Source: Rhizobium sp. BT03
Lineage (GTDB): Bacteria; Pseudomonadota; Alphaproteobacteria; Rhizobiales; Rhizobiaceae
Assembly (NCBI RefSeq): GCF_030053155.1
Contig: NZ_CP125640.1
Coordinates: forward strand, 1,426,001-1,490,000
Reading direction: 5' to 3'
Length of the DNA: 64,000 nucleotides
The notes below the pieces were generated by a model, which ran no database searches, had not been told where the DNA came from, and saw only the letters and a program-made list of their open reading frames with translations. Below, in pieces: positions 44,390 through 58,903 of the stretch. Both the position numbers and the translations under genes were made by a program. Each line of letters starts with the position of its first letter. The stretch's first letter is position 1.

Positions 44390-44538
44390 CAGCTGGTTTT
44401 CGTGGAATAAACCATCACGATCGGCCTCTCCTGATCTGCGGGGTCAGCCTCAGAGAGCCGAAAACAGGATCATCTCCCCTCGCCTTTCCCGGTTCGCTCA
44501 ATCTTTGAATCATCGCCGTAACGGAGCGTGAAACAAGT

Positions 44539-44724
44539 CTAGCGCCACCGCGGCTGCCGCGGCGGCGCATTGGCCTGGATTTCATGCAGCGGCGCCCGGC
44601 ACCCGAGCAGTTTCTTCAGCTTCTTCTCCTCGGCCGGGCTGATCCCGAACTTGCGGCAATGTTCCGCGACATCATGCTCCCGCGGGCCCGGAATGCGAAC
44701 TTGGCGATTGTTCATGCTTTTCAT
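44539..44724 (-). CDS. Small basic protein, DUF3606-like
   Basis: A 61-aa basic protein (MKSMNNRQVRIPGPREHDVAEHC...). The centre HCRKFGISPAEEKKLKKLLG resembles the DUF3606 pattern of small rhizobial proteins in which a KFG(V/I)S motif precedes a helix. AGGAGGAAGCAGTC lies directly before the ATG at 44724. Function unknown. It is the last gene before the phage late genes and could be host or phage. Confidence 0.6.
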   Translation of the reverse strand: MKSMNNRQVRIPGPREHDVAEHCRKFGISPAEEKKLKKLLGCRAPLHEIQANAPPRQPRWR

Positions 44725-44844
44725 GACTGCTTCCTCCTGAGAGGAAAACCAGCACGGCGCGGATTTGTTCGTTAGAAAAGTCTAAATTTAAGTTTTACTT
44801 ACGCCTCTATCAGCAAGAAGCATCGAAGTAACTTAAGCGACTGC

Positions 44845-45273
44845 TCAACTGATCTTCAACCAATGCCTCAACGCCGCCACCGCACCATCGCTGGCATAGG
44901 CGATCATCCCGCCGATCGTCAGCCCGGCAAAGGCAATCAGTCCCGATATGCCGTAGCCGATTGATTTCATCCTTTTCCACTCATCAAGCGCCGGCCCCAC
45001 CGCCTCCTGGTTCTTCTCGACGGTCTCCTTGAGGCTCCTGATCTCCACGCGGATCTGGGCGTCGGTGCCGCCGCTGATCGCCACCCTGGTATCGAGATTT
45101 GCGATCTGTCTTGCCTGTTCGTCGAGCCGGGTGTGGATCACGGCGCGGCTGTCATGGGCATTGGCCTTTTCGTCGCTGACCTCGTTGCGCAGCAGCGCGA
45201 CGTTTTCCTCGATGCCTGTCAGCCTTCCCTCGACGCGCCCGAGAGCGCGGAGAATATCGTCATTGGATGTCAT
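44845..45273 (-). CDS. Phage-associated DUF1515-like protein with coiled coil and membrane helix
   Basis: A 142-aa protein. The N-terminal 90 residues form a coiled-coil-like stretch (LGRVEGRLTGIEENVALLRNEV and following), then one hydrophobic helix near 110-128 (GISGLIAFAGLTIGGMIAYA). This architecture is usual for DUF1515-type proteins near rhizobial prophage lysis genes. Its start overlaps the end of the SGNH hydrolase gene (ATGA). It is the last late gene visible; the prophage left boundary should lie near 44.7-44.85 kb. Confidence 0.65.
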   Translation of the reverse strand: MTSNDDILRALGRVEGRLTGIEENVALLRNEVSDEKANAHDSRAVIHTRLDEQARQIANLDTRVAISGGTDAQIRVEIRSLKETVEKNQEAVGPALDEWKRMKSIGYGISGLIAFAGLTIGGMIAYASDGAVAALRHWLKIS

Positions 45274-46895
45274 GGATAGAACTTCGCCTTGTGCGATTGA
45301 GGCAGACGGCTGACGAAACGCAGGACGCCGTAGAGAGCCGGGTGAACGAAATCGGCGGCCGTATAGGCGTGACCGAGCAGGGCGGCGTTATCCTGCACGT
45401 TGGTCGCTAGCACTTCGGCGACGCGGTAGTTCGCCGTGCCGTCTCCCAAATCCGTTCGGTCTACCAGCGTCCGGCTGGTCCAGAGCCCAGGCTGATATTC
45501 GAACATGATGCGCGCGCCGAGCTTTGTCGTGTTTGGCAGGCGCATCGTGTCCCATGTCGTCACGCCATCTTGGTTGCCGGGATGGCCGATGACGTTGCCG
45601 AGCGGCGTTAATTCGGCCGCCGATCCCTTCGTCGGATCACTGTCCGACATGAAGGCCGGCACGATATCAATCGTCTTGGCGAACCGCGACGACGCGATGA
45701 GTGACGCGTTCATGCTGGCAAGCGTCCCCGTGACCGGGTTCCACAGCGCCGACGTCGCGCTGTAGCCGGCGACCGTGCGGCCGCTATCCGACGATCCCGC
45801 CATGGTCGGCAGAATGGTCATGCCCACCATATGCGCGCCGGGATACCGGGCGATGATCCGATCATCGAGCCCGAACTTGCGCGACTGCCAGAGCGAAAGC
45901 GTCGTGTTGTTGTCGTTGCGGCCGCCCTGGTCGAGGCAGAAAGTCCAAATGTCTTTGCCGCCGTTGAACGTCGTCTTGATGGCGTCGATCATTGCCCATC
46001 GCTTGGTAGCGTTGGTGGCAAGCTCGAATTCGTTATGCTCGCCAGGCACGCCCATGACGAGCGGGACAGTGCTCCCCCATACCTGGTCGCGCTGGTCGAG
46101 CCATCGCCGTATCATGCCCATGTTGCCGCGCTCGTCGGCCGACGCGGCGATCTCCTGCCTCTCGATCAGGCTGTCACCGACGACGAGTGGAACCGGCCGG
46201 CCGTCCCATCCTTTCGCCAGGACAAGCGCGGGCCCGTAAGCCTGGATCTGCGAATTCGTCGCGTTGCCGATCGTGTTGTAAAGGCTGTCAGGATCGAGCG
46301 CCGCCGTGGACGCCCCGTTGGCGGCCGCCAGCGCCTGTACAGACGCCAAGTCGGCGGCACCCCAATACTTTTCGCCGCGATGGCGCTGGATGCGATAGGA
46401 GCCGCAGCGCTGCGCACCCTCTGCGCCGTGATAGACCGTCCGGACGCCAAAGATCGACCATGCCGGCAGAGCAGTTGGCAGTATGACCTGCCCGTAAACA
46501 ATGCCGGTTGCGGCGGTGACCGTCGCCGGCACCAGACCGCCAAACAAGATCGGGTATTCCGTGCCGTTTGGCATCACGAAGAACGCCTCGTCGATCACGG
46601 TATCGGCGTTCGGCGATTGCGTTTCCTGCGGCGCATTGCCGCCTTCGGTCAGCGCGAAGCCGACGAACGGGATAAGGAAGTCGTTCGTCGGATAGTCGGG
46701 CGAGCCGAAGAACAGCTTGGTGCATTGGTAATTCAGCCCGGCCGGGAACGTCCATGGCGTGGCGGTCGCGCCGGTCGGCCAGCGCGTGCGCGTCGCCGCC
46801 GGCATGTAGCGATCAGGATCCGGCACCCAAGGCGGTGGCGCCAGAACAGCTCCACCCCTCGGATTTGTCAGGGCAAGCGAAACGGCATTCATCAT
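45270..46895 (-). CDS. Phage-encoded SGNH/GDSL-type hydrolase
   Basis: A 541-aa protein. The C-terminal two thirds contain the four SGNH blocks: GDSL at 240-243, a glycine in VPGEHNEF, GRND at 325-328, and the Asp-His pair in DFVHP (515-519). The N-terminal 230 residues look like a beta-rich binding part. Such hydrolases remove acetyl or acyl groups from polysaccharides; in a phage they may act on surface glycans or peptidoglycan. It overlaps Rz1 by four bases and lies in the lysis operon. No enzymatic proof; block spacing supports the call. Confidence 0.75.
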   Translation of the reverse strand: MMNAVSLALTNPRGGAVLAPPPWVPDPDRYMPAATRTRWPTGATATPWTFPAGLNYQCTKLFFGSPDYPTNDFLIPFVGFALTEGGNAPQETQSPNADTVIDEAFFVMPNGTEYPILFGGLVPATVTAATGIVYGQVILPTALPAWSIFGVRTVYHGAEGAQRCGSYRIQRHRGEKYWGAADLASVQALAAANGASTAALDPDSLYNTIGNATNSQIQAYGPALVLAKGWDGRPVPLVVGDSLIERQEIAASADERGNMGMIRRWLDQRDQVWGSTVPLVMGVPGEHNEFELATNATKRWAMIDAIKTTFNGGKDIWTFCLDQGGRNDNNTTLSLWQSRKFGLDDRIIARYPGAHMVGMTILPTMAGSSDSGRTVAGYSATSALWNPVTGTLASMNASLIASSRFAKTIDIVPAFMSDSDPTKGSAAELTPLGNVIGHPGNQDGVTTWDTMRLPNTTKLGARIMFEYQPGLWTSRTLVDRTDLGDGTANYRVAEVLATNVQDNAALLGHAYTAADFVHPALYGVLRFVSRLPQSHKAKFYP

Positions 46896-47200
46896 CGGCG
46901 GGCTCCATATCGGGTGGTGAGGTCGTCATAGAATTGGACGGTGCGCGCCTGGCGGGCGTTGGCACGATCGAGGGCTTGGCGCTCTCGGGCGAGGATCGAA
47001 ATCAACGGCTGGCCTTCCACGACCGCGGCGTGAGGCTCTTGCCTGCGCAGATCCTCGGGAAGCGTCGGAAGCAGCACACCGGCCGCCGCCTGCCCCTTCG
47101 TCACCGCCGCCTTGTTCAGCCGCTCAGTGGCGGAGCAGCCACTGACGATCAGCAGCAGTGACAGCGCAAGCGCGGTTCTTCTCGGATAGCTGGAGCTCAT
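46892..47200 (-). CDS. Outer-membrane spanin subunit (Rz1-like lipoprotein)
   Basis: A 102-aa protein with a lipoprotein signal: MSSSYPRRTALALSLLLIVSG followed by C22, lipobox VSGC. The mature part is short and helical. Its 5' end overlaps the Rz-like gene by 77 bases in a different frame, the classic Rz/Rz1 arrangement. The pair joins inner and outer membranes and fuses them at the end of lysis. Confidence 0.8.
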   Translation of the reverse strand: MSSSYPRRTALALSLLLIVSGCSATERLNKAAVTKGQAAAGVLLPTLPEDLRRQEPHAAVVEGQPLISILARERQALDRANARQARTVQFYDDLTTRYGARR

Positions 47201-47489
47201 ATGATCGGATCTCGTTTTCCAGGGTGTCTTTGGCGGCCTGTTCTGAAGCCTGGGCGGCCTCTAGGCGCTTGCGGTGCTCTTCGGTGGCTTGGGCGGCTGC
47301 GTTGCGCTGGCGTTCCATCTCTGTGGCTTTGGCGTCGGCCGCGGTCTTCTCGGAAAGCAGCACATAGCCGGCGCGGGCTTCGCGGGCCGTTGAGGGATAG
47401 CCGATCGTCACGGCGTAGAGATGGTAGAGGGCCAGTCCTGCGAGGATGCCGGCGCCGAGTTTGATGCCGTCGAGGATGCCTAACATCAC
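47124..47489 (-). CDS. Inner-membrane spanin subunit (Rz-like)
   Basis: A 121-aa protein. One N-terminal membrane helix (GILAGLALYHLYAVTIGY) is followed by a long charged coiled coil (EMERQRNAAAQATEEHRKRLEAA onward). The shape, overlapping downstream lipoprotein gene and position after the lysozyme identify it as the i-spanin. It overlaps the lysozyme gene by four bases. Confidence 0.8.
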   Translation of the reverse strand: MMLGILDGIKLGAGILAGLALYHLYAVTIGYPSTAREARAGYVLLSEKTAADAKATEMERQRNAAAQATEEHRKRLEAAQASEQAAKDTLENEIRSYELQLSEKNRACAVTAADRQWLLRH

Positions 47490-47950
47490 AGACCCTCAAG
47501 GCAGAACTGACGTTCCTTCTGCCGGCGACGGGTCAGGCCGGGGAAGACAATTCCCGCGGCGCGGTTCCACTTCAGCAGAGCTTCGCAGCCTTCGGCCGTC
47601 TTGCCCTGGTTGATCAGTTTGACGGCACTCGATCCACAGGCGGCCTTGATGCCAACATTGTACCCGAATGAGGTCAGGGCGACGAAGCGAGCATCCGGCA
47701 GCGGGACCGTGACACAATGCTCGATGCCGGCGGCGTACTTCTGCAGCTCGAGCGCAAGCAGCGCTTTGCACTGCTCTACCGTCTTGCGGTCGCCCGGCTT
47801 CACGCCGTTCGTTGAGCCGTAGCAGATCGTCCAAGGCTGCCCCTGCGTCGCCGGATCGGGATAGGCATTCTGACGAAGCCCCTCGAAGCTGCCGACCAAT
47901 GCCACGGCCATTGCAGCCGCGGCGCTACCCTTCTGAAGGCGGTTTGCCAT
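47486..47950 (-). CDS. Phage lysozyme (GH24, signal-anchor endolysin)
   Basis: A 154-aa muramidase. The triad fits the R21/P22 lysozyme type: Glu23 (SFEG), Asp32 eight residues on (NAYPD) and Thr41 (WTICYG). The hydrophobic, Ala/Gly-rich first 20 residues (AAAAMAVALVG) look like a signal-arrest-release anchor, which lets the enzyme reach the periplasm by the host Sec system and be activated on membrane depolarisation. It overlaps the holin-like gene upstream. Confidence 0.88.
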   Translation of the reverse strand: MANRLQKGSAAAAMAVALVGSFEGLRQNAYPDPATQGQPWTICYGSTNGVKPGDRKTVEQCKALLALELQKYAAGIEHCVTVPLPDARFVALTSFGYNVGIKAACGSSAVKLINQGKTAEGCEALLKWNRAAGIVFPGLTRRRQKERQFCLEGL

Positions 47951-48179
47951 TCAAATCCCCTGAGACTTTCTGTTGAACGAAGATGCGGGCGATGATCGCC
48001 GCGACGGCCAAGAGGCCGGTGATCGCCGACATGGCGAGCTGGATGTAAATGTTCTTCGCAACCCATGTGGCAGCGACGAAGGTGTATATTGGCTCGATGA
48101 TGATGCAGAGCAGCGCCAGGACCATTAAACGGATGGACCATGCGTGCTTGACCACCGCGCGCCAGTTATGGACGAGCAT
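47925..48179 (-). CDS. Holin-like phage protein (DUF7940-type)
   Basis: An 84-aa membrane protein with two hydrophobic helices (SIRLMVLALLCIIIEPIYTF and IYIQLAMSAITGLLAVAAIIA) and the lead NWRAVVKHAWSIRL seen in holin-like proteins of rhizobial and other phages. GGAG precedes the ATG at 48179. It comes just before the lysozyme and overlaps it by 26 bases, the expected place for a (pin)holin that times lysis. Confidence 0.7.
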   Translation of the reverse strand: MLVHNWRAVVKHAWSIRLMVLALLCIIIEPIYTFVAATWVAKNIYIQLAMSAITGLLAVAAIIARIFVQQKVSGDLNGKPPSEG

Positions 48180-48352
48180 GGAAGGCTCCGGGATGTGTGA
48201 GGATGTGGAAAACGCCCGGCTCCTGGGTGGAGACGAGTGCGAATGGAGATGACAACGATGTGGGTTGGTGTCCCGTCCAACGTTAAAGGACACTAGATTA
48301 GCTCAGAGCGGCCAAGCCATCGGAGCTGAACTCCTTCTCTGTATCCAACTCT

Positions 48353-48395
48353 CCAGTTTCGTTAAAACACCTTATCTCGGTGTCAACGAAACTGG
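48353..48395 (-). terminator. Long hairpin separating glycan cassette from lysis genes
   Basis: CCAGTTTCGTT (48353-48363) pairs perfectly with AACGAAACTGG (48385-48395). An inner stem ACACC-N7-GGTGT extends it. It lies 36 bp past the end of the SMR-like gene in the direction of cassette transcription, so it likely ends that transcript or insulates the lysis genes. Confidence 0.55.
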
Positions 48396-48430
48396 CAGCA
48401 GGCTATGGTAGGTCACCTTGGATCGCACAC

Positions 48431-48793
48431 CTAACGCGTGCCAGCAATAATTCCCATGAAGATCAATAGAATAGCAAAAAGCCGCGTCGCTGTTACCGGC
48501 TCGCCAAAGAAGACCATGCCTCCAACAGTCACAGAAGCAAACATCACCCCGATGAAGATCGGATAGGCCAATGACAATTCATAGCGTTCCAGCACGGCGA
48601 ACCACGCGAACGACGCGATAAATGTCATCGCATAGGCTGAAAGAACCAATGGATCACTCAGATAGCGAATGATCCTTGTCAGGGCAGTGGCAGGGCCGAC
48701 CTGATCGGCCAGCATTCCGATGCGCCACTTTGTTATAAACTGACTGTACAGCGTAAGAATGACGGTCGGCAGAATCGCCAGAAGCAGCTTCAT
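48431..48793 (-). CDS. SMR/ArnE-like small flippase
   Basis: A 120-aa protein with four membrane helices and the EamA/SMR layout (GVMFASVTVGGMVFFGEPVTATRLF near the end, LSLAYPIFIGVMFAS in helix 3). It resembles ArnE/ArnF and other SMR-superfamily flippases that move undecaprenyl-phosphate-linked amino sugars across the inner membrane. Last gene of the minus-strand cassette. In this context it probably replaces GtrA as the lipid-linked sugar flippase (inference). Confidence 0.7.
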   Translation of the reverse strand: MKLLLAILPTVILTLYSQFITKWRIGMLADQVGPATALTRIIRYLSDPLVLSAYAMTFIASFAWFAVLERYELSLAYPIFIGVMFASVTVGGMVFFGEPVTATRLFAILLIFMGIIAGTR

Positions 48794-48857
48794 GGCGTTG
48801 CGCTACGGTTGTGATGACTACAGCGGACAGGCTGCCGCGCGCTAAAGACGTCGTCGA

Positions 48858-50309
48858 TCATGGAATCGCATGTCCGTAGCGATACATGTCAAGCATCTCA
48901 GGCGGTATACCCCAGTCTTTGGCGCCGATCTGATCGTGCAGACGTTCCACCGCGTCGCGCATGTTTGCCTCGACCTGTTCCGGCATACGGCTCGTCGCGG
49001 GCGAAAATCCGTGCTGGTAGGCCGCGCTCATCTGGTGGCGGACTGCCTTCGCGACAGCCTGATCCCGCGTCATGGTCCGCAATGGCTTGCGACTGGGCGC
49101 AAAAAACTCATAACCCTCGTCCACAGCTTCGCCGTGCAGCATCTTGGCCATCACCTCGCAAATCAGTGGAGCGAGATGGAACCCGTCTCGCTTTGTTCCT
49201 GTGGCAGCGAAAAGATTGCCGATCGACGTCTGTCCGAGCAGCGGGTAGGTGTCCTGGCTATTGGGGCGCGCGCCAACGTTCACACGGATCAGGTCGGCCC
49301 GGTAATAGTTGCTGTTAATCTGTTTTATGGCCCCGTTGAGCAGGCCTTCGATGCTCGTCAGCCGGCCATGCGCGTGGAGCTGTGGCGCAATGAAGTTGCT
49401 GGCTCCGACGAGCACATGATCGTTCGGCTCGTTTGGCCCCTGAAAATAGGGCGCAGCATACAGGCCACAAGCCAGACCGCGGTTAGGGGTGCGGATGACA
49501 TGGGAGAGTGCATCATCTTGGCTGCGGATTTCTATCGATGTGCCGATGCCATAAAAGATGCGCTGCATCAGGTCCGGCAACCCGCTGCGATCCAGAACGT
49601 CCCACGCCGTTGCCCCGGTGGCCAGAACAAACTGGTCGCCTTCGACCTGTTGGCCCGACATCAGAGTGACATGAGTAATTGCCCCATTCGCATGGTCGAA
49701 ACGGTCGACACCTTCGTCGATAAAGCGCACACGCTCCGCTCGGCGCAGCGCACCCTCCATCTTCTCCAGCATGAGACGCGGATTGAACCAGCCCTCGTTG
49801 TGAATGAAGACAGCGCGGCTGGCGCGGTAACGCTGGTGCGGCTTGTAGTGGGGAATGTCTTTCGGCGAAATAACGTCGTGCTGCTCGTTGAAATCGACCA
49901 GCGCAGCGAGGATAGCGTCGAAATTGAGGTCGTCGAGATCGTCGGCAGCGTTGTTGTTGACAACGTAAGTTCCGGATTTGAAACATCCACCACCCGCGCA
50001 TCCCTGACAGGCGGAGCAACCACGGGGAAGTGCGTCGCCTGCTGCATCGATAAGCGCCTGCTCGAAGGCTGGCCAGAGGCGCGTCGCCCGATGACTCATC
50101 TCAAATCGAAAGAGATCGACATCGGTATCGAGGCCACCATGCTCAATTTCCGCGAAGGAATTGAGCATCGCCGCCGCGGCAAGCGTCGCGGATCCTGGGC
50201 GTTGCGGCGGGCCGACCACAACGATCTCATCCGAAGCGCTTGCGCGCCGCAGCAAGCCGAACGCAATCGACAACCCCACAACGCCGTTTCCCAGCACCAC
50301 CCGTTTCAT
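48858..50309 (-). CDS. FAD-dependent DAO-family oxidoreductase with cysteine cluster
   Basis: A 483-aa flavoprotein. The N-terminal dinucleotide fold is VVLGNGVVGLSIAFGLL (GxGxxG at 7-12), and the C-terminal part has DTYPLLGQTSIGNLFAATGTKRDGFHLAP, the amino-acid-oxidase FAD-return motif. Unusually, Cys98, 101, 104 and 109 form C-x2-C-x2-C-x4-C, which may bind metal or an iron-sulfur cluster. GGAG precedes the ATG at 50309. Substrate unknown; the context suggests a nucleotide sugar, its amino group, or an amino acid used to decorate it. Confidence 0.75.
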   Translation of the reverse strand: MKRVVLGNGVVGLSIAFGLLRRASASDEIVVVGPPQRPGSATLAAAAMLNSFAEIEHGGLDTDVDLFRFEMSHRATRLWPAFEQALIDAAGDALPRGCSACQGCAGGGCFKSGTYVVNNNAADDLDDLNFDAILAALVDFNEQHDVISPKDIPHYKPHQRYRASRAVFIHNEGWFNPRLMLEKMEGALRRAERVRFIDEGVDRFDHANGAITHVTLMSGQQVEGDQFVLATGATAWDVLDRSGLPDLMQRIFYGIGTSIEIRSQDDALSHVIRTPNRGLACGLYAAPYFQGPNEPNDHVLVGASNFIAPQLHAHGRLTSIEGLLNGAIKQINSNYYRADLIRVNVGARPNSQDTYPLLGQTSIGNLFAATGTKRDGFHLAPLICEVMAKMLHGEAVDEGYEFFAPSRKPLRTMTRDQAVAKAVRHQMSAAYQHGFSPATSRMPEQVEANMRDAVERLHDQIGAKDWGIPPEMLDMYRYGHAIP

Positions 50310-50338
50310 GTCAACTCCAAGCAACCGTAAGATACGAT

Positions 50339-51103
50339 TCAGATCTTCTTCAAATAACAAAGCCCGGGATAGGTCGGGCAGCGATGGAGACTGTGGCCGT
50401 ACTTGCCGATAATGTTTTCCGCATAAACGCGTCCTTCAGCCGGAATGACATTTCTGGTCAACTGCCAGAAAGCGGCAATGCCGCCCGGCACCATCCTCTG
50501 CCAAACAGCCTCGAAAGCTTCGAGCGACGGCTGATAAGAATTTACATCGAAAAAGGCGAGCGCCACAAATTCATGGGGATTTTCAGAGAAATGTTGCGGG
50601 ATAGTCTCGCGGCAGTTCCCTTTAATCACCTTGTGCTTGCCGAAATTGTGTCCCATGGCGTTGGATTGCTCATGCAGTTTCAGCAATTCATCGAGATAGC
50701 CGGCATATTCCTCGCCTCCGACGCCATAGGTGCCGTCGCGATGCAGTTCTGACGGAGCATCCTTGTCGGAGAAGCCGACATAGCCCTCGAACGTGTCGAA
50801 ACAGGCAATCCGACGATTGAGATGCAGAGGTTCGTAAATGGCCCGTAGGTTCTCGCACAGCACGGCTGTCTGGCCGCGCCATGTGCCAATATCCAGGATG
50901 GAGCCGGGAATATCGACGATCTGTACATAAATATCCCGGATCGCCAGAATACGCGCCAGCAATGAACCACGTAGGAAAAGACCGGGCGAACGCTCTTTTT
51001 CCTCTGGCGTTGCAGGATAGGTCTTCTGCAATTCGAATATCTTGTGTCTTGCGTCGATGCTGGTGGAAGGTGAATAGCTTATAGAGGTGGATTCGTGCGA
51101 CAT
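50339..51103 (-). CDS. TylF/MycF-like O-methyltransferase
   Basis: A 254-aa SAM-dependent enzyme of the TylF/macrocin O-methyltransferase family. SILDIGTWRGQTAVLCENL is the SAM-binding glycine loop, RRIACFDTFEGY follows beta strand 2, and ALAFFDVNSYQPSLEAFEAVW holds the metal-binding acidic region. Family members methylate sugar hydroxyls on deoxysugars or macrolides. It lies 29 bp upstream of the flavoprotein gene and could methylate the cassette's sugar product. Confidence 0.75.
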   Translation of the reverse strand: MSHESTSISYSPSTSIDARHKIFELQKTYPATPEEKERSPGLFLRGSLLARILAIRDIYVQIVDIPGSILDIGTWRGQTAVLCENLRAIYEPLHLNRRIACFDTFEGYVGFSDKDAPSELHRDGTYGVGGEEYAGYLDELLKLHEQSNAMGHNFGKHKVIKGNCRETIPQHFSENPHEFVALAFFDVNSYQPSLEAFEAVWQRMVPGGIAAFWQLTRNVIPAEGRVYAENIIGKYGHSLHRCPTYPGLCYLKKI

Positions 51104-51140
51104 GATCTATCTCTGATTTTTGGGTAAGCAGCGGGTATTT

Positions 51141-52082
51141 CTATTTCCAAAATCTGTCCTTGATAATATAGAGCGGACGATTTTGAACTTCCTTGAAAAT
51201 CTTCCCAACGTAAAAGCCGACAACGCCCAAGCAAATCAGCTGGACACCAACCGCAAACAGGCCGATCGCGGCAAGAGACGTGAAGCCGGGTTCGATATTG
51301 GTCAAAAACAAGCGCATCACCACAAGCGCCACGCCCATCATTGTACCAAATGCACTAAGGAGCAGCCCCAGCGACATCACGATCATCAGTGGGCGCTCGG
51401 AAAAATACAGCAGTCCATCAAGCCCCAGCCGCAGCCGTGACCAGAAATTATAGGACGACCTGCCCTTTAGTCGCGGCCGGTGGGCGATGCGCGTATAACG
51501 CGGCGAGAATCCCATCCACTGGTCAAGACCTTGAGGAAACCTCGTTTTTTCTGTCAGGCCATTGTAAGCATTGGCGTATCGGCGGCTCAGCACACGCAGG
51601 GGAGACGTGTTCTGCGGCGACTCGAGACCGGTCATGATTCGAAAAAAGCTATAATAGAGCCGAGCGGTCATGCGATTGATTAGCGGGCTTTCCCGTTGCT
51701 CGTACTGTCCGATCACGATGTCCGCCTTCGTCGCCGTCATATGTTCAAGCAATGTCGGAATTTGGTCCGGATGGTCCTGCATATCGACGTTCATTCGGAT
51801 GACTACATCACCCGTGGCCTCACGGAAACCGCAAGCGATGGCAATGTGCTGCCCAAAATTCCTTGACAGGTCGATGATCCGGACGAAATCGAACTTGGCC
51901 TGCAGCGCAAGCAGCAGCTCAAGGCTATTGTCCGGGCTGCCATCATTGACAAAAATCAGCTCCAGGACCGCCTCAAGATCCTCGCGCCCTGTATATGCAC
52001 GCATGACTCGCTGGATTTCTACGCACAGGTCATCGGCCAAATTGCCATCGCGATAGATGGGCACCACGATGGAGTAATTCAC
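51141..52082 (-). CDS. GtrB/ArnC-like undecaprenyl-phosphate glycosyltransferase (GT2)
   Basis: A 313-aa GT-A enzyme. NYSIVVPIYRDG, LELIFVNDGSPDNS, RNFGQHIAIACGF and the metal site VDMQDHPDQIP match the DPM1/GtrB/ArnC group. Two C-terminal membrane helices (IVMSLGLLLSAFGTMM and FAVGVQLICLGVVGFYVG) tether it. It would load a sugar from a nucleotide donor onto undecaprenyl phosphate. A GTG start at 52082 gives the family N-terminus; a longer frame to 52229 adds an unrelated-looking lead. Confidence 0.85.
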   Translation of the reverse strand: MNYSIVVPIYRDGNLADDLCVEIQRVMRAYTGREDLEAVLELIFVNDGSPDNSLELLLALQAKFDFVRIIDLSRNFGQHIAIACGFREATGDVVIRMNVDMQDHPDQIPTLLEHMTATKADIVIGQYEQRESPLINRMTARLYYSFFRIMTGLESPQNTSPLRVLSRRYANAYNGLTEKTRFPQGLDQWMGFSPRYTRIAHRPRLKGRSSYNFWSRLRLGLDGLLYFSERPLMIVMSLGLLLSAFGTMMGVALVVMRLFLTNIEPGFTSLAAIGLFAVGVQLICLGVVGFYVGKIFKEVQNRPLYIIKDRFWK

Positions 52083-52173
52083 GGCTTGCGCCCCATATAT
52101 GCGCGGCCAATCTGCTCCGCTGCAAAGCCATGTCGCCAAGCGTCTCCAGCCTTGCAAAGGAAAGTCAAACGAG

Positions 52174-52884
52174 TCAACATCCTGCTGCTCCCTGTTGCTG
52201 TCCGGGCATGGCCGTAAGTGCACCCCCATGCCCGTTCAGAATAGGATCAATGATGCTGACTTGCCCGTCAAAAGCGCCGTGAAGCTGCGTGTATTCCGGA
52301 TAGGGGCCGTAACTCATCCACTCCACCGTAACCCCCGCATCCCGAAACATGGTTTCGTCCAAATACACTTTCGCAGATGGACCCGACAGATAATGTGTTG
52401 CTCCAGCCGCAAGACAGGTCTCGAGGACCCGCGCACTTCGTGTCCCGCGCGGAGAGTAGATTCTGTCGCGGGTGATCACAACTTCCAACTTCAACATTTC
52501 GACGACATGCCTGAGGAACAACTCATTGACCTCAGTCAACAGCTGCAGTTTCTCGGCCTGCTTGTACAGCGATTCGATAAGAGGCAGAAAATCTCTGGCG
52601 ACCGGTGCCGTCTTATAGGCCTGACGGATCTGGGAAAAATGTGCCTGAGCCCAATCTCCCTTGATTTCAACATCCTCAATGGGTTGCCCGAGCCTGTCGC
52701 TGGTCATCACAGGAATGGTCATCCAGCGCGTGCCCGTTGCGGTCTTGATCTTGTTTCGATTGTGCCAATGGCCCTTGCTGTAGGCGACCTGATCATAAAT
52801 GATGTATTCATCGCAGCGGCTAATCAGGTCGAAGAAGCCACGCCAGGGAACATAAGATGACTGTATGATCGCGACGCGTTTCAT
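52174..52884 (-). CDS. WbqC-family protein
   Basis: A 236-aa protein starting MKRVAIIQSSYVPWRGFFDL, with DEYIIYDQVAYSKGHWHNRN and SPRGTRSARVLETCLAAG, and HYLSGPSAKVYLD further on. These are the WbqC-family landmarks (IQPxYxPWxGYFxxI, NRxxI, YLSGxxA). The family is common in O-antigen gene clusters next to sugar aminotransferases; its reaction is not established, though modification of the 4-amino group is often suggested. It overlaps the methyltransferase gene upstream by four bases. Confidence 0.85.
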   Translation of the reverse strand: MKRVAIIQSSYVPWRGFFDLISRCDEYIIYDQVAYSKGHWHNRNKIKTATGTRWMTIPVMTSDRLGQPIEDVEIKGDWAQAHFSQIRQAYKTAPVARDFLPLIESLYKQAEKLQLLTEVNELFLRHVVEMLKLEVVITRDRIYSPRGTRSARVLETCLAAGATHYLSGPSAKVYLDETMFRDAGVTVEWMSYGPYPEYTQLHGAFDGQVSIIDPILNGHGGALTAMPGQQQGAAGC

Positions 52885-53765
52885 GGCCGCGTACCTGCAG
52901 ACTTTCTTGCCACCACGAAACGCGATCCCCCGGCCGGCAGGCGCACTCCGAGGCGGATGAGCTGTCGTTCGCAATCCAGCAATATCTCGAACGACCTGTC
53001 CACGAACCACGGCAGTTGCAACTCCCGCGCCGGATCATGATCCTTGGAGCGACTGCGTGTGGAGCGCTGGAGCGCGAAAACCGGCAATAGGCTCGTTACA
53101 AATGATGTCGAGAAAATCACCTCAAGACCGGCGACAGCACACTTCTGCTCCAACTCGCCGCGCCGGTAGCGGCGTTTGTGGAAAGCCAGATCATCGTTGC
53201 GGCTCCAAAGGCCGGGGTGTTGCGGAACAGCCAGCAGCACTCCGCCGCCCCCCTGCAGGGCCTGGGCCATTTGCTGCAAGACCAGCCCATCCTCTTCGAT
53301 ATGCTCAAGCACGTCGAACGCACAAAGCAAATCGAACTCCTCACGAAAAGGGATGTCGCGCGCATCCATCTGAAAGAGTTGCCCCGCCCCTTTCAATCGC
53401 TCGTGCGCGTAAGGCAAGCCGTTTAGATAGATCTCACTGCCGCATAGGACCGCATGCGGAAGAGCCTGGCGCAAAGCCGTGAGGACGAAGCCCGTGCCGC
53501 ATCCCACTTCCAGCGCCCGTTGGCTGCTGGCAAAATATCGCCGCACAAGATCTGTGATCAGGCGGTTTCTGGCTCGAAACCAGAAGCTGCCATGCTGCAA
53601 CGCCTGAAGCTGTTCATGTGAATTGCTCGCCATGCCGTCATTTTCACGGGCAAGTGTGGGCGCAAATGACAGAAAACCATCTTCCAGAGGCACTAGCGTG
53701 TCACATTTGGGGCATCGCCAGATGTCCGCCTCGTACACGGCATCACACGCCAAGCAACGTTTCAT
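52881..53765 (-). CDS. Class I SAM methyltransferase with N-terminal zinc-ribbon-like motif
   Basis: A 294-aa protein. Four cysteines at the N-terminus (RCLACDAVYEADIWRCPKCD) form a CxxC-x(n)-CxxC ribbon. The SAM domain follows: ALEVGCGTGFVLTALRQ, MDARDIPFREEFDLLCAFDVLEHI and GGGGVLLAVPQHPGLWS. The pattern is typical of methyltransferases in O-antigen and capsule clusters. It is coupled by four-base overlaps to the aminotransferase upstream and WbqC downstream, so these three act as a unit. Confidence 0.82.
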   Translation of the reverse strand: MKRCLACDAVYEADIWRCPKCDTLVPLEDGFLSFAPTLARENDGMASNSHEQLQALQHGSFWFRARNRLITDLVRRYFASSQRALEVGCGTGFVLTALRQALPHAVLCGSEIYLNGLPYAHERLKGAGQLFQMDARDIPFREEFDLLCAFDVLEHIEEDGLVLQQMAQALQGGGGVLLAVPQHPGLWSRNDDLAFHKRRYRRGELEQKCAVAGLEVIFSTSFVTSLLPVFALQRSTRSRSKDHDPARELQLPWFVDRSFEILLDCERQLIRLGVRLPAGGSRFVVARKSAGTRP

Positions 53766-54889
53766 TGCGCAAGTTCCAGAACCCGACTGGCGACGCGGGC
53801 GATAACTGCCTGGGTCAGGCCGCCATGCAGAGGCAGCCGAAGCAGAGTATCGGCCGTCTCATTGGTGACCGCCATTGACGACCCCGTTACTCCGTATCGT
53901 TCACCGGCTGGCGACGAATGCAGAGGAACATAATGCGTAACGCCCCCTATGCCTTCCGCCACCAATTGTCGGCGCGTCTCTTCGCGATGTTCGAGATTCG
54001 TAAAGCGCACATGATAGATATGTCCGTTATGTGCAGCGTCGTCCGGGATTTCAGGAAGGCGCAACCCGTTATTGCCGGCCGCTTTGAATATTGCGTCATA
54101 GGCATGCCACAGCGAAAGCCGATGCCGTGTCAGTTCTTCGGCATACTCAAGCTGGGCCAGAAGCACAGCAGCCACCAAATCGGATGGCAGGAAGGAGGAC
54201 CCCATATCCTGCCAGTCGTATTTGGCCACTTCGCCGCGAATGAACTGGGAGCGATTGGTGCCCTTCTCCCGGATGATTTGCGCTCGCTCGACGAGACCGG
54301 GATCATTGACAATCAGGGCCCCACCTTCGCCAGAGACAACATTCTTGGTCTGATGAAAGCTCAAAGTGGCCAACTGGCCGAATGTTCCGAGGGCCCGACC
54401 TTTCCAGGAAGCTAGGTAAGCCTGGGCCGCATCCTCCACCACAGCCAGTCCATGGCGCCAGGCGATAGCCAAAATAGGCTCCATCTCGCACCCCACTCCG
54501 GCGTAGTGAACGACGAAGATTGCCTTGGTTCTCGGCGTAATGGCAGCCTCAATCAGCGTTTCGTCGATATTGAGCGTATCGCCACGAATATCGACGAATA
54601 CCGGCACAGCTCCGCGCAGCACTACTGCATTGGCCGTCGACACGAAGGTGAACGACGGCATGATAACCTCATCCCCCGGCTCGAGGCGGAGAAGCATTGC
54701 GGCCATTTCCAAGGCAGCGGTACACGAGTGGCACAGAAGCGTACTGGCGCCGTAGACCGAGTCCAAATGCGCATGACATCGCTTTGTGAAGTTTGCATCG
54801 CCGCCCCACTGGCCCGAGAGAAGGCATTCGTTGAGATAGAGCGCCTCCTTCCCGATCAAGTGAGGCAATGCAAAAGAGACACGATTCAT
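53762..54889 (-). CDS. dTDP-4-amino-4,6-dideoxy-hexose transaminase (WecE/RffA-like)
   Basis: A 375-aa PLP enzyme of the DegT/DnrJ/EryC1 family. The pyridoxal lysine is Lys182 in SFHQTKNVVSGEGGAL, a WecE-style motif, and Asp153 in VVEDAAQAY contacts the ring. The tail segment THYVPLHSSPAGERYG is also WecE-like. WecE converts dTDP-4-keto-6-deoxyglucose, which the host rhamnose pathway would supply, to dTDP-4-amino-4,6-dideoxygalactose. First gene of the minus-strand cassette, so it probably sets the identity of the added sugar. Confidence 0.85.
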   Translation of the reverse strand: MNRVSFALPHLIGKEALYLNECLLSGQWGGDANFTKRCHAHLDSVYGASTLLCHSCTAALEMAAMLLRLEPGDEVIMPSFTFVSTANAVVLRGAVPVFVDIRGDTLNIDETLIEAAITPRTKAIFVVHYAGVGCEMEPILAIAWRHGLAVVEDAAQAYLASWKGRALGTFGQLATLSFHQTKNVVSGEGGALIVNDPGLVERAQIIREKGTNRSQFIRGEVAKYDWQDMGSSFLPSDLVAAVLLAQLEYAEELTRHRLSLWHAYDAIFKAAGNNGLRLPEIPDDAAHNGHIYHVRFTNLEHREETRRQLVAEGIGGVTHYVPLHSSPAGERYGVTGSSMAVTNETADTLLRLPLHGGLTQAVIARVASRVLELAQ

Positions 54890-55329
54890 TCACCAACATC
54901 CGAAGCAGCGTATTGCGTCAAAGGCTCGATAGCAAAAAAGCCCCCGCGTTGCGCCTCTAATTAAATTATAATCCACATAAGACAAGCGATATTCCGCCAG
55001 GACCGCGGACATGGGTCACAACGTTCGGTAGGATACATTTTTCTATTAATAGAACCGCTAGGTTCGCAAATTTATATTGAAGAACCATTCGGTTTGCAAA
55101 TAGTGGCTTAACCGAAGCCATTTATTAACCGCGCAAGGTCCGGCAATCAAATCACGCGCGCTGCTATGCATTTATCCGCCGATCCCATTTATTGGATCAA
55201 CCGTCATCTTCGATGGCTCATTCGACTTTGGTGTTGGCTGGAAACACAAACAAAGACCGAGCCCACAAACGCAATGCCGACATTTTGTGCAAGAATGGAT
55301 GTCCCTTTTTGTACAAGGAAAGCCATGAG
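54890..55329. promoter_or_regulatory. AT-rich divergent promoter region of the glycan cassette
   Basis: Control region between the aminotransferase (minus) and the GtrII-like gene (plus). It holds two copies of a 21-bp element at 55051-55071 and 55081-55101 (see separate entry), a dyad GGCTT-AACCG-AAGCC at 55105-55119, and several AT-rich tracts that could be promoters. Start codons at 55192 (TTG) and 55213 (ATG) for the GtrII-like gene are possible but less likely than 55330. Confidence 0.55.
55051..55101. repeat. Tandem 21-bp operator-like repeats
   Basis: AGAACC-N4-GGTTCGCAAAT at 55051-55071 recurs as AGAACC-N4-GGTTTGCAAAT at 55081-55101. Each core is a dyad (GAACC-N4-GGTTC; AACC-N4-GGTT in the second). 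Start-to-start spacing is 30 bp, about three helical turns, suiting cooperative binding by one regulator. Confidence 0.6.
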
Positions 55330-56964
55330 ATGCCCGACATTAAAAGACTTTTAAAAAGATCTGAATTGCAGATATTTCTCGTTTACACGGGTGCGCACCT
55401 TCCCATCTTTCTATTATCGGAAGCACGATATTGGGACGACTGGAGCCTTTCTGGTGCGAGCAAAGAAATGCTCGTTTCTGTTTTTACTCAGGCCGGCTTT
55501 CCCCTTCTCGGATATTACCATTATGCTGTTCAATTGATCGGCTGGTGGTTTTACGCTTTTTCAACCTTTGCGCTCGGTTACCTCATAATTCATGTATTCT
55601 ATCTTATCCTGAAGGCTTTCGATTTCTCAAAATCTGACGCAACGGCGCTGTCGCTTCTTGCAGCAGCTTTACCTGTTAACTTTGCCAGAATTGCCGCAAT
55701 AAACAATCCAGGGCTGCTTTTTCTACTGCTATTTGTTTTCGCGTTATATATTTTTGTAATTTCTGTGATTAATAAAAACCTATATACAGAGTACCTTTCT
55801 TACGTCTTGTTTATTTTTTCATTTCAATTCAATGCTCTTATACCTCCGTTTCTACTGGTTTTTTTCATCGCTTCGTTCCTGTTTTATAAGAAGACTGACA
55901 CCTCAGCAGGTATAATTCATTACGGAAACTATCTAAAAAAAATCACACATCTTATAAAGAGAACGGGGGCAATTATGCTCCTGCCCTTCCTATACGCCTT
56001 AATACAACATTTTTTATTCAAGAAAACCGGCATGTTTGCCGCCAGCTATAATGTCATCAACATCAATTTCGGCGGAATACTATCGGAAGTCAAAGTCGTA
56101 ATTATATATTTATTCCCATACGAAGGTATATATATTGGACCATCGGTCACACTAACGATCCTTTTGGCCGCCTTTCTTATTTCCTACTTGATTAGACCAA
56201 ATTCTACGGGCAGCGGCACGGAGGCCGAATGCAACGGAAAAGGTTTGGTAGGTATTGGGGTCGTGCTATTGGGTCTGGGAGCCTCGGCCTATGTCTTGGT
56301 CGGGAAGGAGCCCTCCTATGCGCCTTGGATGGCGACCCGCTTTCAAGTGCTGCTTCCGTTTGGCGCCGCCTTTTCTACCCTGGGTCTTTTAAAGATCATC
56401 TGCGCCGTTTTTCCGGCTGAGAACCCCAATATACGTCATCGGGTGAATGTGGCCTCATTTGGTGGCCTGATAGCAGTGTTCATTGTGAATTGGTGGTTTG
56501 TTTATGCCACTTTTTATGTCGACCACCTGCGCCAGGAGGCTTTTGCCGATACGATCAGGAACACCCCCTCTCTGCAAAGCCGTAATTACGTGATCCTTGA
56601 CAGATCTGGCCTGAACGCATTCGATACAATGCCCGGAATCGGAGAATATGCCGGGCTGCATGAAGCCGCGACCGGGAAACACGATGCATTGATTTTGGAT
56701 TATGACTCCATGACAGCATATGGCGGTTGGTCTGGATTTGTTGACAATTTTAAACGGTTCTTGGGAGCCTGGTCGAAAGTCGAAGACGCGGCGTTAGATG
56801 TCCCAGGATGCCTCTACATCGTTAATCGCGAACGCAACGTGCAAAGCACGTGGGCCTATGCAGTGAGTGCTTTTATTGTCAAGATAAGACATCCTGAAAA
56901 CTACACGGCAAGGCACCTCTTGAGTTTTGATGGTCCTTATTGCCAGTCGCACCGGCAAATGTGA
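55330..56964 (+). CDS. GtrII-like polytopic glycosyltransferase (serotype conversion type)
   Basis: A 544-aa membrane protein with about ten or eleven hydrophobic helices. It opens MPDIKRLLKRSELQIF and has an early periplasmic ARYWDDWSLSG acidic motif, as in the GT-C glucosyltransferases of phage serotype-conversion cassettes (GtrII family), and a soluble C-terminal domain from about residue 430. Such enzymes move a sugar from undecaprenyl phosphate to O-antigen in the periplasm. Coding sequence is strikingly AT-rich (15 G/C in the 60 bases 55741-55800). The ATG at 55330 has AAGGAAA upstream. Confidence 0.75.
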   Translation: MPDIKRLLKRSELQIFLVYTGAHLPIFLLSEARYWDDWSLSGASKEMLVSVFTQAGFPLLGYYHYAVQLIGWWFYAFSTFALGYLIIHVFYLILKAFDFSKSDATALSLLAAALPVNFARIAAINNPGLLFLLLFVFALYIFVISVINKNLYTEYLSYVLFIFSFQFNALIPPFLLVFFIASFLFYKKTDTSAGIIHYGNYLKKITHLIKRTGAIMLLPFLYALIQHFLFKKTGMFAASYNVININFGGILSEVKVVIIYLFPYEGIYIGPSVTLTILLAAFLISYLIRPNSTGSGTEAECNGKGLVGIGVVLLGLGASAYVLVGKEPSYAPWMATRFQVLLPFGAAFSTLGLLKIICAVFPAENPNIRHRVNVASFGGLIAVFIVNWWFVYATFYVDHLRQEAFADTIRNTPSLQSRNYVILDRSGLNAFDTMPGIGEYAGLHEAATGKHDALILDYDSMTAYGGWSGFVDNFKRFLGAWSKVEDAALDVPGCLYIVNRERNVQSTWAYAVSAFIVKIRHPENYTARHLLSFDGPYCQSHRQM

Positions 56965-57055
56965 CGTGCTCGCCGCGTCTAGGTTCTCTGCTCGATAGAA
57001 AAGAAAACCTGTCGCGTTATCAGCCTCAGGGATTCGTCTTTCAAAGCACGAACTC

Positions 57056-58411
57056 TTATACGCTTCTACCGCTTGGGAAATGGAAGCCATCCGTCCAGAT
57101 CCACATGCTGCCGGCCGCACCCGCTACCAGCCGGATCTGCTTGCTGGTGTTCGTCCAGATCTCCGCTGAGCCTATGGCGTAATTGCTTGCAACTTGAACG
57201 GCACCGACGTTGCCGCCATCATTCACGATGCCCGCGACGAGTACGCCTTGCGCTGGATCCGAAAGCAATGCCGAATTGGTGGCCGACGAAGAGGTGAATT
57301 GGAACCGCAGCTTCGCTTTAACTTTCACCCCGTTGGGGACGGTTAAAGTTAATAAGGCAGATGCCGTTGAGACAGCTAAGCTATTCGCATCCTTCACCGG
57401 CGTAACGAAAGTATATTCGTCACGCGGGTACATCACGAATTGCCGGACGAGCGAGTTGGCATCGGTCAGCACCACGCCGATGCATTTGACGATGCTATAG
57501 CCGGTGAGCAGCGTTGTGGCGATGCCGCCGATCGTCGCCGAGGTCGAGAGAACAATGTCGAAAGACAGGTCTGCGTCCTTGCGCAAGGCATATGCAAAGT
57601 AGGTCGCATTCGCCGCAACGGCGCCGGCGTCGAGGCCGCCGGCGCCGGTGCCAGCCGCAAATGTTCCCGTCACTCGCTTCGTCAATGACGTTGCGCTGGA
57701 AACGAAGCTCGATCCCGTCCTGGCAGATCCTGCAGCAAAATCGATATGCGTATTCGGGCTGGCGCCGTTGTTGGAAAGGGTGAGCCCGACAATGAAATCG
57801 CCGACCGCCGAACTGTCGGCTTTGCTCTGGATCCTGGCGAAGAGCTTGTTGGTGAAGAAAGCGGCGCCGGAACAGATGATTTCGACGCTGTAACCGTCCT
57901 TGAGAATAAGCGTGGCTGCGCCGTCGATCGTCTCCGAACCGTTCGGGTCGATCGTCACATCCCCGCCATCGGCGATGACGCAATAGTGCCAGTTTGCACC
58001 GAGCGTTGCCGCCGCGGTCAAAGTGAGCGTGGCGGCCGCGGTAAAGCGATGGACGGCGTTATCGTCGGATGCGAGCGCGGTGTAATCGCCTGACTTCACC
58101 GCATAGACCAGATCCTGATCGAATGCGACCTCAACGCCGTTCTGGGCAAAGCCGAGCAGGCCGCCGCCTTTCAGATAGAGGCCGGTCTGCGGGGTCGAGG
58201 CGAAGCCGACGCCCGGCGCGGACACGGTTCCGCCTGCGGCCTTGAGCGGTGCGATCATCGGCGCCGAACCGTCGCGCGGCAGCGAATTGGTGATTTCGTT
58301 GCCGAGGTCGGTGGTCAGCGCGTTCCACGGCGCCGGGTCGATGACCTGGCCGACGGAAGGTGTCGTGCCGGCGGGTTTGGAATAGACGCCGGTGGATGGA
58401 TTTCTGGGCAT
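57056..58411 (-). CDS. Phage tail fibre protein
   Basis: A 451-aa protein. The N-terminus MPRNPSTGVYSKPAGTTPSVGQ with WNALTTDLGNEITNSL is a common tail-fibre anchor in alphaproteobacterial phages. The body is Gly/Ala/Thr/Ser-rich and beta-repeat-like (GVGFASTPQTGLYLKGGG, TLTLTAAATLGANWHYCV). GGAGCAAGG precedes the ATG at 58411. It is the last structural gene before the inserted glycan cassette, so receptor binding and receptor modification functions lie side by side. Confidence 0.75.
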   Translation of the reverse strand: MPRNPSTGVYSKPAGTTPSVGQVIDPAPWNALTTDLGNEITNSLPRDGSAPMIAPLKAAGGTVSAPGVGFASTPQTGLYLKGGGLLGFAQNGVEVAFDQDLVYAVKSGDYTALASDDNAVHRFTAAATLTLTAAATLGANWHYCVIADGGDVTIDPNGSETIDGAATLILKDGYSVEIICSGAAFFTNKLFARIQSKADSSAVGDFIVGLTLSNNGASPNTHIDFAAGSARTGSSFVSSATSLTKRVTGTFAAGTGAGGLDAGAVAANATYFAYALRKDADLSFDIVLSTSATIGGIATTLLTGYSIVKCIGVVLTDANSLVRQFVMYPRDEYTFVTPVKDANSLAVSTASALLTLTVPNGVKVKAKLRFQFTSSSATNSALLSDPAQGVLVAGIVNDGGNVGAVQVASNYAIGSAEIWTNTSKQIRLVAGAAGSMWIWTDGFHFPSGRSV

Positions 58412-58496
58412 TTACCTTGCTCCGAAATGAAAAGGCCCCGCGATTGCGAGACCCTATGTTCTGTAGTACCGGTTGCAAAATTTCGGGGATATTGAG

Positions 58497-58876
58497 ATGC
58501 GTTCCAAGCTTGTCGTTGTTGCTGCCTTTCGCTCGTGCTGACCTCTTGCCAGGACAGACCGATCGACGAGCTGTCTTACTCGGAGTTGAAGTCTCTCTCG
58601 CTCGAATTGCACAAGCGCTGCTGGGCTCGGGGCGTCAAGAGCGACACGCCTGAAATGAAGATGTGTCTACAGCAGGAGTTCACGCGTGAATCGTCGATCA
58701 GGAGCAACAATCTGCAGGCCAGACAAGCGATGGGGGAAGCGCTTATAGCAGGCGTGCAGGGTTACAATCAGGGACTGCAGCAGCAGCCGAGCTATCGGCC
58801 GATGAACTGCACCTCGACGCCGACAAGCACCTGGGTCGGCGGCCCAGTCCGTCAGGTCAGGACGTCCTGCTATTAG
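58497..58876 (+). pseudogene. Frameshifted small lipoprotein gene inside the phage late region
   Basis: An ATG at 58497 gives MRSKLVVVAAF and then stops after RSC. A second frame continues SLVLTSCQDRPIDELSYSE to the stop at 58876. Restoring one base near 58530 would join them as MRSKLVVVAA(L)SLVLTSC, a perfect lipoprotein signal with lipobox LTSC and a 95-aa charged mature part. Either the gene has lost one base, or translation starts at the GTG at 58535 without a signal. It is on the strand opposite to the late genes, as expected for a moron. Confidence 0.6.
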
Positions 58877-58903
58877 TGTGCCGCCGGCGCCGCCCCATTG
58901 AGT

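Follow-up and report, generated by a model that had tools for sequence, protein, structure and literature searches.

The window analysed here is a stretch of 64,000 nucleotides of Rhizobium sp. BT03 (positions 1,426,001 to 1,490,000), located on a 4.5-Mb contig of the 6.9-Mb genome G000. Between a tail fibre gene and a holin gene of a phage-derived element, eight open reading frames (ORFs) were found at 48431-56964, none of them with a profile match to virion or lysis families, confirming what a preliminary description of this DNA had stated. Together, these genes probably form a self-contained system for surface-glycan decoration, a cassette that would make, flip and attach a modified 4-amino-4,6-dideoxyhexose. 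More tentatively, at a likelihood placed somewhat below even, the 4-amine of this sugar would be capped by an amino-acid-derived group, because the flavin enzyme of the cassette resembles Orf1 (N-formimidoyl fortimicin A synthase) and its WbqC protein is predicted to resemble BshC (bacillithiol cysteine ligase). The earlier interpretation is partly supported: it appears mostly right in outline, with its chemistry made more specific here and its carrier re-described.

Gene content and proposed pathway

Seven cassette genes are closely spaced or overlapping on the minus strand and the eighth, the GT-C ORF (55192-56964, plus strand), is divergent. The G+C content is 0.53-0.59 in the cassette and 0.42-0.49 across the GT-C gene; in the window it is mostly 0.58-0.67.

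48431..48793, minus strand: SMR-type small membrane protein, candidate flippase subunit (ArnE/ArnF/EmrE-like); PF00893, 23.4 bits, cut-off 23.7
48858..50309, minus strand: flavin adenine dinucleotide (FAD) enzyme of the DAO superfamily, nearest solved relative N-formimidoyl fortimicin A synthase/Orf1; PF01266, 1.8e-28
50339..51103, minus strand: TylF-family sugar O-methyltransferase; PF05711, CalS11
51141..52229, minus strand: GtrB/ArnC-type polyprenyl-phosphate glycosyltransferase (GT2); PF00535, 2.8e-24, phrog_841
52174..52884, minus strand: WbqC-family protein, predicted BshC-like fold; PF08889
52881..53765, minus strand: class I S-adenosylmethionine (SAM) methyltransferase; PF08241, 2e-13
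53762..54889, minus strand: WecE, dTDP-4-keto-6-deoxyglucose 4-aminotransferase; NF008687, TIGR02379, PDB 4piw
54890..55191, no strand: divergent control region with two exact GAACC-N4-GGTTY-GCAAA sites (55052-55070 and 55082-55100)
55330..56964 (ORF opens at 55192), plus strand: GT-C membrane glycosyltransferase ('GtrII-like'); WDDWS motif

The WecE-like aminotransferase was borne out by scores exceeding two curated cut-offs (NF008687, 510.6 bits vs 375; TIGR02379, 476.1 vs 434.85), and its nearest solved relatives are dTDP-4-amino-4,6-dideoxygalactose transaminases (PDB 4piw, 7.5e-118). Elsewhere in the genome, long matches to it reach at most 37% identity. Among 50,697 phage records, 79 matches were retrieved, all below 60% identity, and the best of these (53-54%) lie in Salmonella or E. 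coli records that read as host DNA. Judging from the encoded genes, the WecE substrate dTDP-4-keto-6-deoxyglucose can come from the host, in line with the rhamnose-type supply proposed earlier: RmlA (488.5 bits, cut-off 360.65) and RmlB (493.6 bits, cut-off 365.1) are both found in a locus read as the host O-antigen locus, and two RmlB copies in the host genome exceed the cut-off.

Two methyltransferases accompany this enzyme. The TylF-like protein passes the PF05711 cut-off (30 bits vs 23), as expected from its preliminary naming, and its best solved relative is CalS11, a TDP-rhamnose 3'-O-methyltransferase belonging to a natural-product pathway. This likeness, with a similarity of just 1.2e-34, suggests that the TylF-like enzyme acts on a nucleotide sugar. 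The other protein had been described as a zinc-ribbon methyltransferase; its methyltransferase domain is supported by PF08241, with remote PDB matches only (best 1e-6), and the zinc ribbon is a reading by eye of the N-terminal CxxC/CxxC pairs.

For the membrane steps, the GT2 protein matches phrog_841 (1.4e-68), the GtrB-like sll0501 in the PDB (7e-55) and ArnC (2.5e-32); it also matches 133 phage records, all below 60% identity. Together with the predicted fold of the GT-C protein, these matches uphold the proposed lipid-linked sugar transfer, and the profile searches did not show the genes to be unrelated to it. The flippase is a weaker assignment, as the PF00893 score of the SMR protein lies slightly below the cut-off, the ArnE (1e-4) and ArnF (2e-4) matches lie far under theirs and an SMR protein in the PDB matches at 2e-3. 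Regarding the 'GtrII-like' enzyme, a GT-C fold is predicted with modest confidence, and no family match was obtained in profile searches, nor a sequence match to a solved chain, nor a match in the 50,697 phage records at E 1e-5. Its model, with a predicted local distance difference test (pLDDT) score of 65, has PglB and Pmt4 as nearest folds and ArnT further down, and the WDDWS motif is invariant in 17 of 17 aligned proteins. Alignment of relatives indicates 55330 as the likely start. Thirty-three relatives were found among 7,997 scored candidates, the named ones belonging to Rhizobium or Neorhizobium and five others sharing 31-36% identity; in the genome collection, the named relatives are from Rhizobium phaseoli, R. 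chutanense and Rhizobium sp. L43. The single plasmid match is weak (24%, Legionella).

In the proposed pathway, host RmlA and RmlB would supply dTDP-4-keto-6-deoxyglucose, which WecE would aminate to dTDP-4-amino-4,6-dideoxygalactose (dTDP-Fuc4N). The nucleotide sugar would then be methylated by the TylF/CalS11-like enzyme and probably by the second methyltransferase also. Capping of the 4-amine would involve WbqC as an amino-acid or acyl ligase and the flavin enzyme, which would use glycine as the source of a one- or two-carbon imino group. The sugar would then be loaded by GT2 onto undecaprenyl phosphate, after which the SMR protein would flip the lipid-linked sugar and the GT-C enzyme would attach it in the periplasm to a surface glycan, most likely lipopolysaccharide (LPS). 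The chemistry beyond WecE, the lipid carrier, the acceptor, the product and any effect on phages or plants we infer. The cassette is like the WecE/Fuc4N pathway in its curated families and solved structures, but there is no acetyltransferase among its eight genes, and WbqC and the flavin enzyme would do the capping instead.

The same gene set was sought at the same locus in related elements and was found complete in eight further Rhizobium elements. Using tblastn, the eight genes were recovered in the same order and place in L002/L054, L003/L051, L006, L007, L008, L009, L010/L052 and L053, counted as eight further elements (nine with the window) because L054 and L051 lie on contigs equal in length to those of L002 and L003 and score as these do, and L052 scores nearly as L010. 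The main aligned pieces share 79-99.6% identity with the window proteins; WecE aligns in two pieces in L010 (92% and 85%) and in one piece in L052. Ratios of non-synonymous to synonymous substitution rates (dN/dS) are 0.04-0.28 for the cassette (eight genes, eight comparisons), and the cassette genes are under purifying selection. For the phage genes p61293 and p62676 the ratio is similar, 0.03-0.16 where measurable; it reaches up to 0.42 for the fibre and 0.58 for an esterase gene of the element.

Several variants of the cassette were observed. In L005, a ninth relative, TylF is absent, the GT2 gene is a different one and the flavin gene is reduced to its end; in place of the missing parts, L005:12788-16166 encodes a PylC-N/ATP-grasp/HAD protein, a methyltransferase and a distinct GtrB-like protein. 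An extra AT3 acyltransferase gene lies between the SMR and holin genes at L009:19671-20858 and L010:17626-18819, the latter identified by likeness to L009. In an island of Rhizobium sp. L43 (L004:9953-21587), a GT-C gene of 68% identity faces WecE (58%), a methyltransferase (46%), GtrA, GT2, a hexapeptide transferase and PhyH. By eye, the neighbours of this island are not phage genes and an RmlA-like reading frame is in two pieces. Judging from this island, such kits seem to exist outside phages too. In the open-access literature, where an absence is weak, no paper on this cassette or its kind was found.

A host O-antigen locus split by an assembly join was rejected as the origin of the region, since the stretch occurs once in G000, on the large contig, and the locus read as the host O-antigen locus sits about 340 kb off. 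A copy of a host pathway was likewise rejected, the best other matches in the genome being 37% (WecE-like), 33% (WbqC) and 30% (methyltransferase) identical.

Proposed capping of the 4-amine

The flavin gene likely starts at 50309, giving a protein of 483 amino acids, the length of most homologues among the matches listed. Its best solved matches are 7xqa/7xyl, N-formimidoyl fortimicin A synthase (E about 1e-47, residues 14-471, 30% identity over nearly the full length), followed by glycine oxidase at 8e-13. Passages of PMC10156733 describe two sites in Orf1: glycine is oxidised at the first, and at the other an N-O-S adduct arises on C281, from which a formimidoyl or iminoacetyl group is handed to an amine; the same passages describe the C281A and E426Q variants as retaining glycine oxidation while losing the product. 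Residues were compared in 121 proteins, i.e. the window protein and 120 relatives among the matches listed (688 scored relatives; 7,997 candidates). The catalytic cysteine C281 of Orf1 corresponds to C291, kept in 121/121, and the two substrate-binding arginines of the glycine site, R342 and R368, correspond to R358 and R384, also kept in all 121.

Other positions differ from Orf1. E426 of Orf1 is Q442 in each of the 121 proteins, which counts against identical chemistry; in four other relatives compared the position is Glu (Streptomyces, Agrobacterium and G147 relatives) or Asp (Pseudomonas). Two glycine-site residues are changed (H284 to Y, Y294 to L), and two alignments put the stretch around the acceptor-site Glu312 at different places in the flavin protein. 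Cysteines 108, 111 and 119, kept in at least 97% of the 121 proteins, are absent from Orf1 and are a possible metal site. Because of Q442, the H284 and Y294 changes and the added cysteines, the enzyme is described as resembling Orf1, and membership of its family is not claimed. The two also differ in setting, Orf1 being encoded in an antibiotic cluster and the cassette gene in a surface-sugar operon. The preliminary label of flavin oxidoreductase holds as far as the FAD/DAO assignment goes, and is refined to a resemblance with glycine-dependent N-formimidoyltransferases.

WbqC was readily recognised by PF08889 (209.6 bits, cut-off 21.3), the only family matched, in agreement with its preliminary naming. 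Its model (pLDDT 90.6) has BshC as the best fold match by a clear margin, and the protein is predicted to adopt a BshC-like fold as a putative amino-acid ligase. BshC is thought to act on a sugar amine, as stated in part of PMC4360819. The likeness is one of predicted fold: WbqC has half the length of BshC, and its profile gave no sequence match to BshC chains. In the host locus read as the O-antigen locus, a BshB1-like deacetylase gene (TIGR04001, 81.8 bits, under the cut-off of 182.5) and a further WbqC gene overlap, with a NeuB/PseI-like synthase nearby (L049:1345-2675); such an overlap would fit a WbqC that re-acylates amines.

Another possibility might be that the flavin enzyme is an ordinary glycine or amino-acid oxidase and WbqC an ordinary acyltransferase, so that the sugar would simply be an N-acylated, O-methylated Fuc4N. 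Of the alternatives this one keeps the most weight, although it is unlikely. It would account for Q442 in place of E426 and for the match to the ThiO glycine oxidase profile (2e-26), though this reaches 92.8 bits against a cut-off of 250.8. Cys291 is nevertheless kept throughout the 121 proteins, and its Orf1 counterpart is, in the passages of PMC10156733 cited above, needed for group transfer and not for glycine oxidation. Moreover, each of the nine complete cassettes, counting that of the window, has the flavin gene inside the sugar operon.

With the flavin protein as query, 14 of 148 genus genomes give a match at E 1e-3 and five are counted as holding orthologues of at least 92% identity; the nine dropped matches include a 33% full-length relative in G147. 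In the class sample (385 genomes, E 1e-80) and the phylum sample (398 genomes, E 1e-60), the only genome with a copy at these limits was G000 itself, although 688 relatives were scored among database proteins. Plasmid relatives were found in 18 records, all below 60% identity and with unrelated settings in the three inspected, and no match was retrieved from the 50,697 phage records at E 1e-5.

The carrier element and its variable zone

The element spans about 44500-64000 of the window and 1 to about 9800 of L011. The genes closest to the cassette are as follows:

57056..58411, minus strand: tail fibre, cassette flank; phrog_19294, 1.1e-6
47925..48293, minus strand: holin, cassette flank; phrog_1356, 8e-7
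47486..47950, minus strand: endolysin; phrog_7, 4e-52

On the far side, the element continues through a portal and a large terminase, with a small terminase recognised by eye in L011, and ends before DLH (a dienelactone-hydrolase-like gene, named by eye) and YidB. Adjoining the lysis genes, an L1-like esterase (phrog_8480, 45270-46895 of the window) shares 97-99% identity with some relatives, about 70% with others and 37-43% with many; given this spread, the esterase is possibly one more variable gene with action at the surface.

The zone between tail fibre and endolysin is variable in related elements. In IMG/VR, relatives of p62676 (best 80 of 110 stretches) and of the endolysin (best 80 of 91) were collected, and the fibre-endolysin gap measures 0.9-9.8 kb on 70 de-duplicated contigs holding both genes, pieces not spanning both being left out. 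Cargo ORFs of at least 180 amino acids were clustered with the cassette-bearing contig L216 set aside, and one representative of each cluster was searched against Pfam; the leading clusters are AT3 acyltransferases (20), a hexapeptide transferase (18), methyltransferases (8) and AT3/AT3-SGNH proteins (7). Genes of the AT3, hexapeptide and methyltransferase kinds act in altering surface polysaccharides, LPS among them. By homology to the representatives, 24/24 species-level elements carry, in the zone around the tail fibre, at least one acyl-, methyl- or glycosyltransferase-type or cassette gene. The window type, cassette A, is complete in five of these 24; a second type, cassette B, is complete in four, while two more have four of its seven genes at the limits applied, and both together occur in none. 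Cassette B (L267:3993-12911 in G002; also in G105, G108 and G028, partial in G077 and G017) is located across the fibre from cassette A and comprises methyltransferases (two FkbM), a fatty-acid desaturase, a GT2, an LPG-synthase-type membrane protein and a divergent 561-residue protein related to the window GT-C (25%, 6.5e-14). A divergent GT-C gene facing biosynthetic genes is the layout common to both cassettes.

The divergent region of cassette A is conserved and holds two tandem, near-palindromic sites 30 bp apart. No further exact site match occurs in the 6.9-Mb genome, where two one-mismatch matches lie elsewhere. In a comparison of ten control regions, both sites were recovered with at most one mismatch in eight; L010 retains a single site, and in L006 none appears even when two mismatches are allowed. 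Over the 24 species pieces, three sites fall outside control regions, with two mismatches only (G010, G017 and G077), so cassette B and the other cargo are without the sites at that limit. Profile searches revealed no regulator-like gene among the eight cassette genes. A sigma-70 scan was uninformative, since it gave 4 promoter-like sites where shuffled sequences averaged 7.3; terminator-like sites numbered 25 vs 10.7.

Because the cassette sits in this variable zone beside the tail fibre, where relatives hold other genes of surface-modifying type, its selected role would most likely be to alter the receptor seen by the element's own or by competing particles. The same machinery might instead act on capsule, exopolysaccharide, lipid or protein rather than on LPS O-antigen, an alternative considered improbable. 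Favouring it, the best folds of the GT-C protein include the protein transferases Pmt4 and PglB besides ArnT, the protein is without a sequence match to a phage record or solved chain and some of its relatives carry RgtA/B/C/D-like names; however, AT3, hexapeptide and methyltransferase genes abound in the carrier zone, and the host has a large locus reading as an O-antigen locus.

The cassette had been described as prophage-borne. Its phage origin is upheld by the terminase, portal, fibre and lysis genes, but its present mobility is not, given the integrase search and the vertical tracking detailed below. No match to the integrase family PF00589 was found in G000 between the nearest ones at 0.71 and 2.98 Mb of C1, other recombinase families not having been searched. 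The conserved phage gene p62676 (phrog_5107, labelled amidase; a tail or neck protein in some phage records) is present in 32 of 148 genomes, in 24 of them at full length and at least 93% identity, and the matches listed have no internal stops. In G000 (from the window and L011), G069, G010 and G057, DLH-YidB borders the element at one end and HtrA-LacI at the other. Twenty further species were compared: DLH lies on the terminase side in 19 (in G014 the contig ends) with YidB in 13, and HtrA lies on the opposite side in 13, with none within the 20 kb fetched in seven. Twenty-nine genomes have DLH without p62676; of the 20 fetched, 13 have element pieces beside DLH and seven have none, these seven including two with HtrA/LacI rearranged, one with YidB only (possibly the wrong side) and two stretches of 442 and 6,266 bases. 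In Mantel comparisons, terL distances correlate with those of DLH (r 0.70, 22 genomes) and HtrA (r 0.68, 13 genomes), close to the value for DLH against HtrA (r 0.75, 14 genomes); for terS and portal against flanking host genes the values are lower, 0.52-0.63.

Based on the shared flanks, the remnant pieces and terL tracking the host genes, the element appears to be a long-standing resident of the chromosome, passed on mostly by vertical descent and to some extent exchanged. It is a candidate gene-transfer-agent-like or killing particle. Like gene transfer agents and domesticated phages, it has packaging, virion and lysis genes at one locus and no integrase match near; this likeness is one of gene content and locus. 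A still active temperate phage, with the cassette as a classical lysogenic conversion spread by infection, is again rather improbable. The terminase, portal, structural, fibre and lysis genes are all there, the listed p62676 matches are without internal stops and relatives occur in IMG/VR, but PF00589 is unmatched over the range searched (an integrase of another family being possible), the same flanks recur in most species fetched and terL tracks the host genes beside it. It is very improbable that the cassette is cargo of a dying prophage, hitch-hiking O-antigen genes with no present function, as the missing integrase match, the 13 of 20 relatives with pieces only, the rearranged L005 copy and the two-piece alignment of WecE in L010 might indicate, because dN/dS is well under 1 for all eight genes and for p61293 and p62676, and nine complete copies, the window's included, are found with a conserved control region.

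A second copy of p62676 (87% identity) lies at G000:C1:3059827-3061053, with integrase matches at 3.04 and 3.09 Mb; because of this copy and the integrase matches nearby, a related true prophage may be present in the same genome.

Relation to gtrABC and significance

The gtrABC cassettes of P22, epsilon34 and Shigella SfII, SfV and SfX share with the present cassette a GtrB-type transferase, a candidate flippase, a variable attaching enzyme (a predicted GT-C protein here) and phage-gene neighbours, as described in passages of PMC2629481. UDP-glucose is the donor for phage gtrABC, whereas here five extra enzymes seemingly make and modify the sugar. GtrA (PF04138) is unmatched by all eight cassette proteins, an SMR protein being found instead, but is present in island L004; the attaching gene is divergent here and not downstream. 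Because GtrA is lacking, the gene order differs and the cassette seemingly carries its own sugar synthesis, it is, by analogy, a system that works like gtrABC but not a member as defined.

A more specific proposal joins the chemistry to the carrier. The cassette would make an amidine-bearing 4-amino-4,6-dideoxyhexose (N-formimidoyl or N-iminoacetyl, derived from glycine), perhaps on an aminoacyl arm added by WbqC as a BshC-like ligase, and the interchangeable multi-gene cassettes beside the tail fibre would serve self-recognition or self-immunity of a domesticated, vertically inherited Rhizobium particle. Antibiotic-type N-formimidoylation would then be used on a surface glycan. Taken jointly, these claims are doubtful.

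If the interpretation is true, phage-like elements would supply a whole amino-sugar pathway, beyond a mere glucosyltransferase, and symbiotic Rhizobium species would exchange such kits at one locus by the tail fibre. This would open the function of WbqC, N-formimidoylation on bacterial surface glycans and the co-evolution of particle and host surface to testing.

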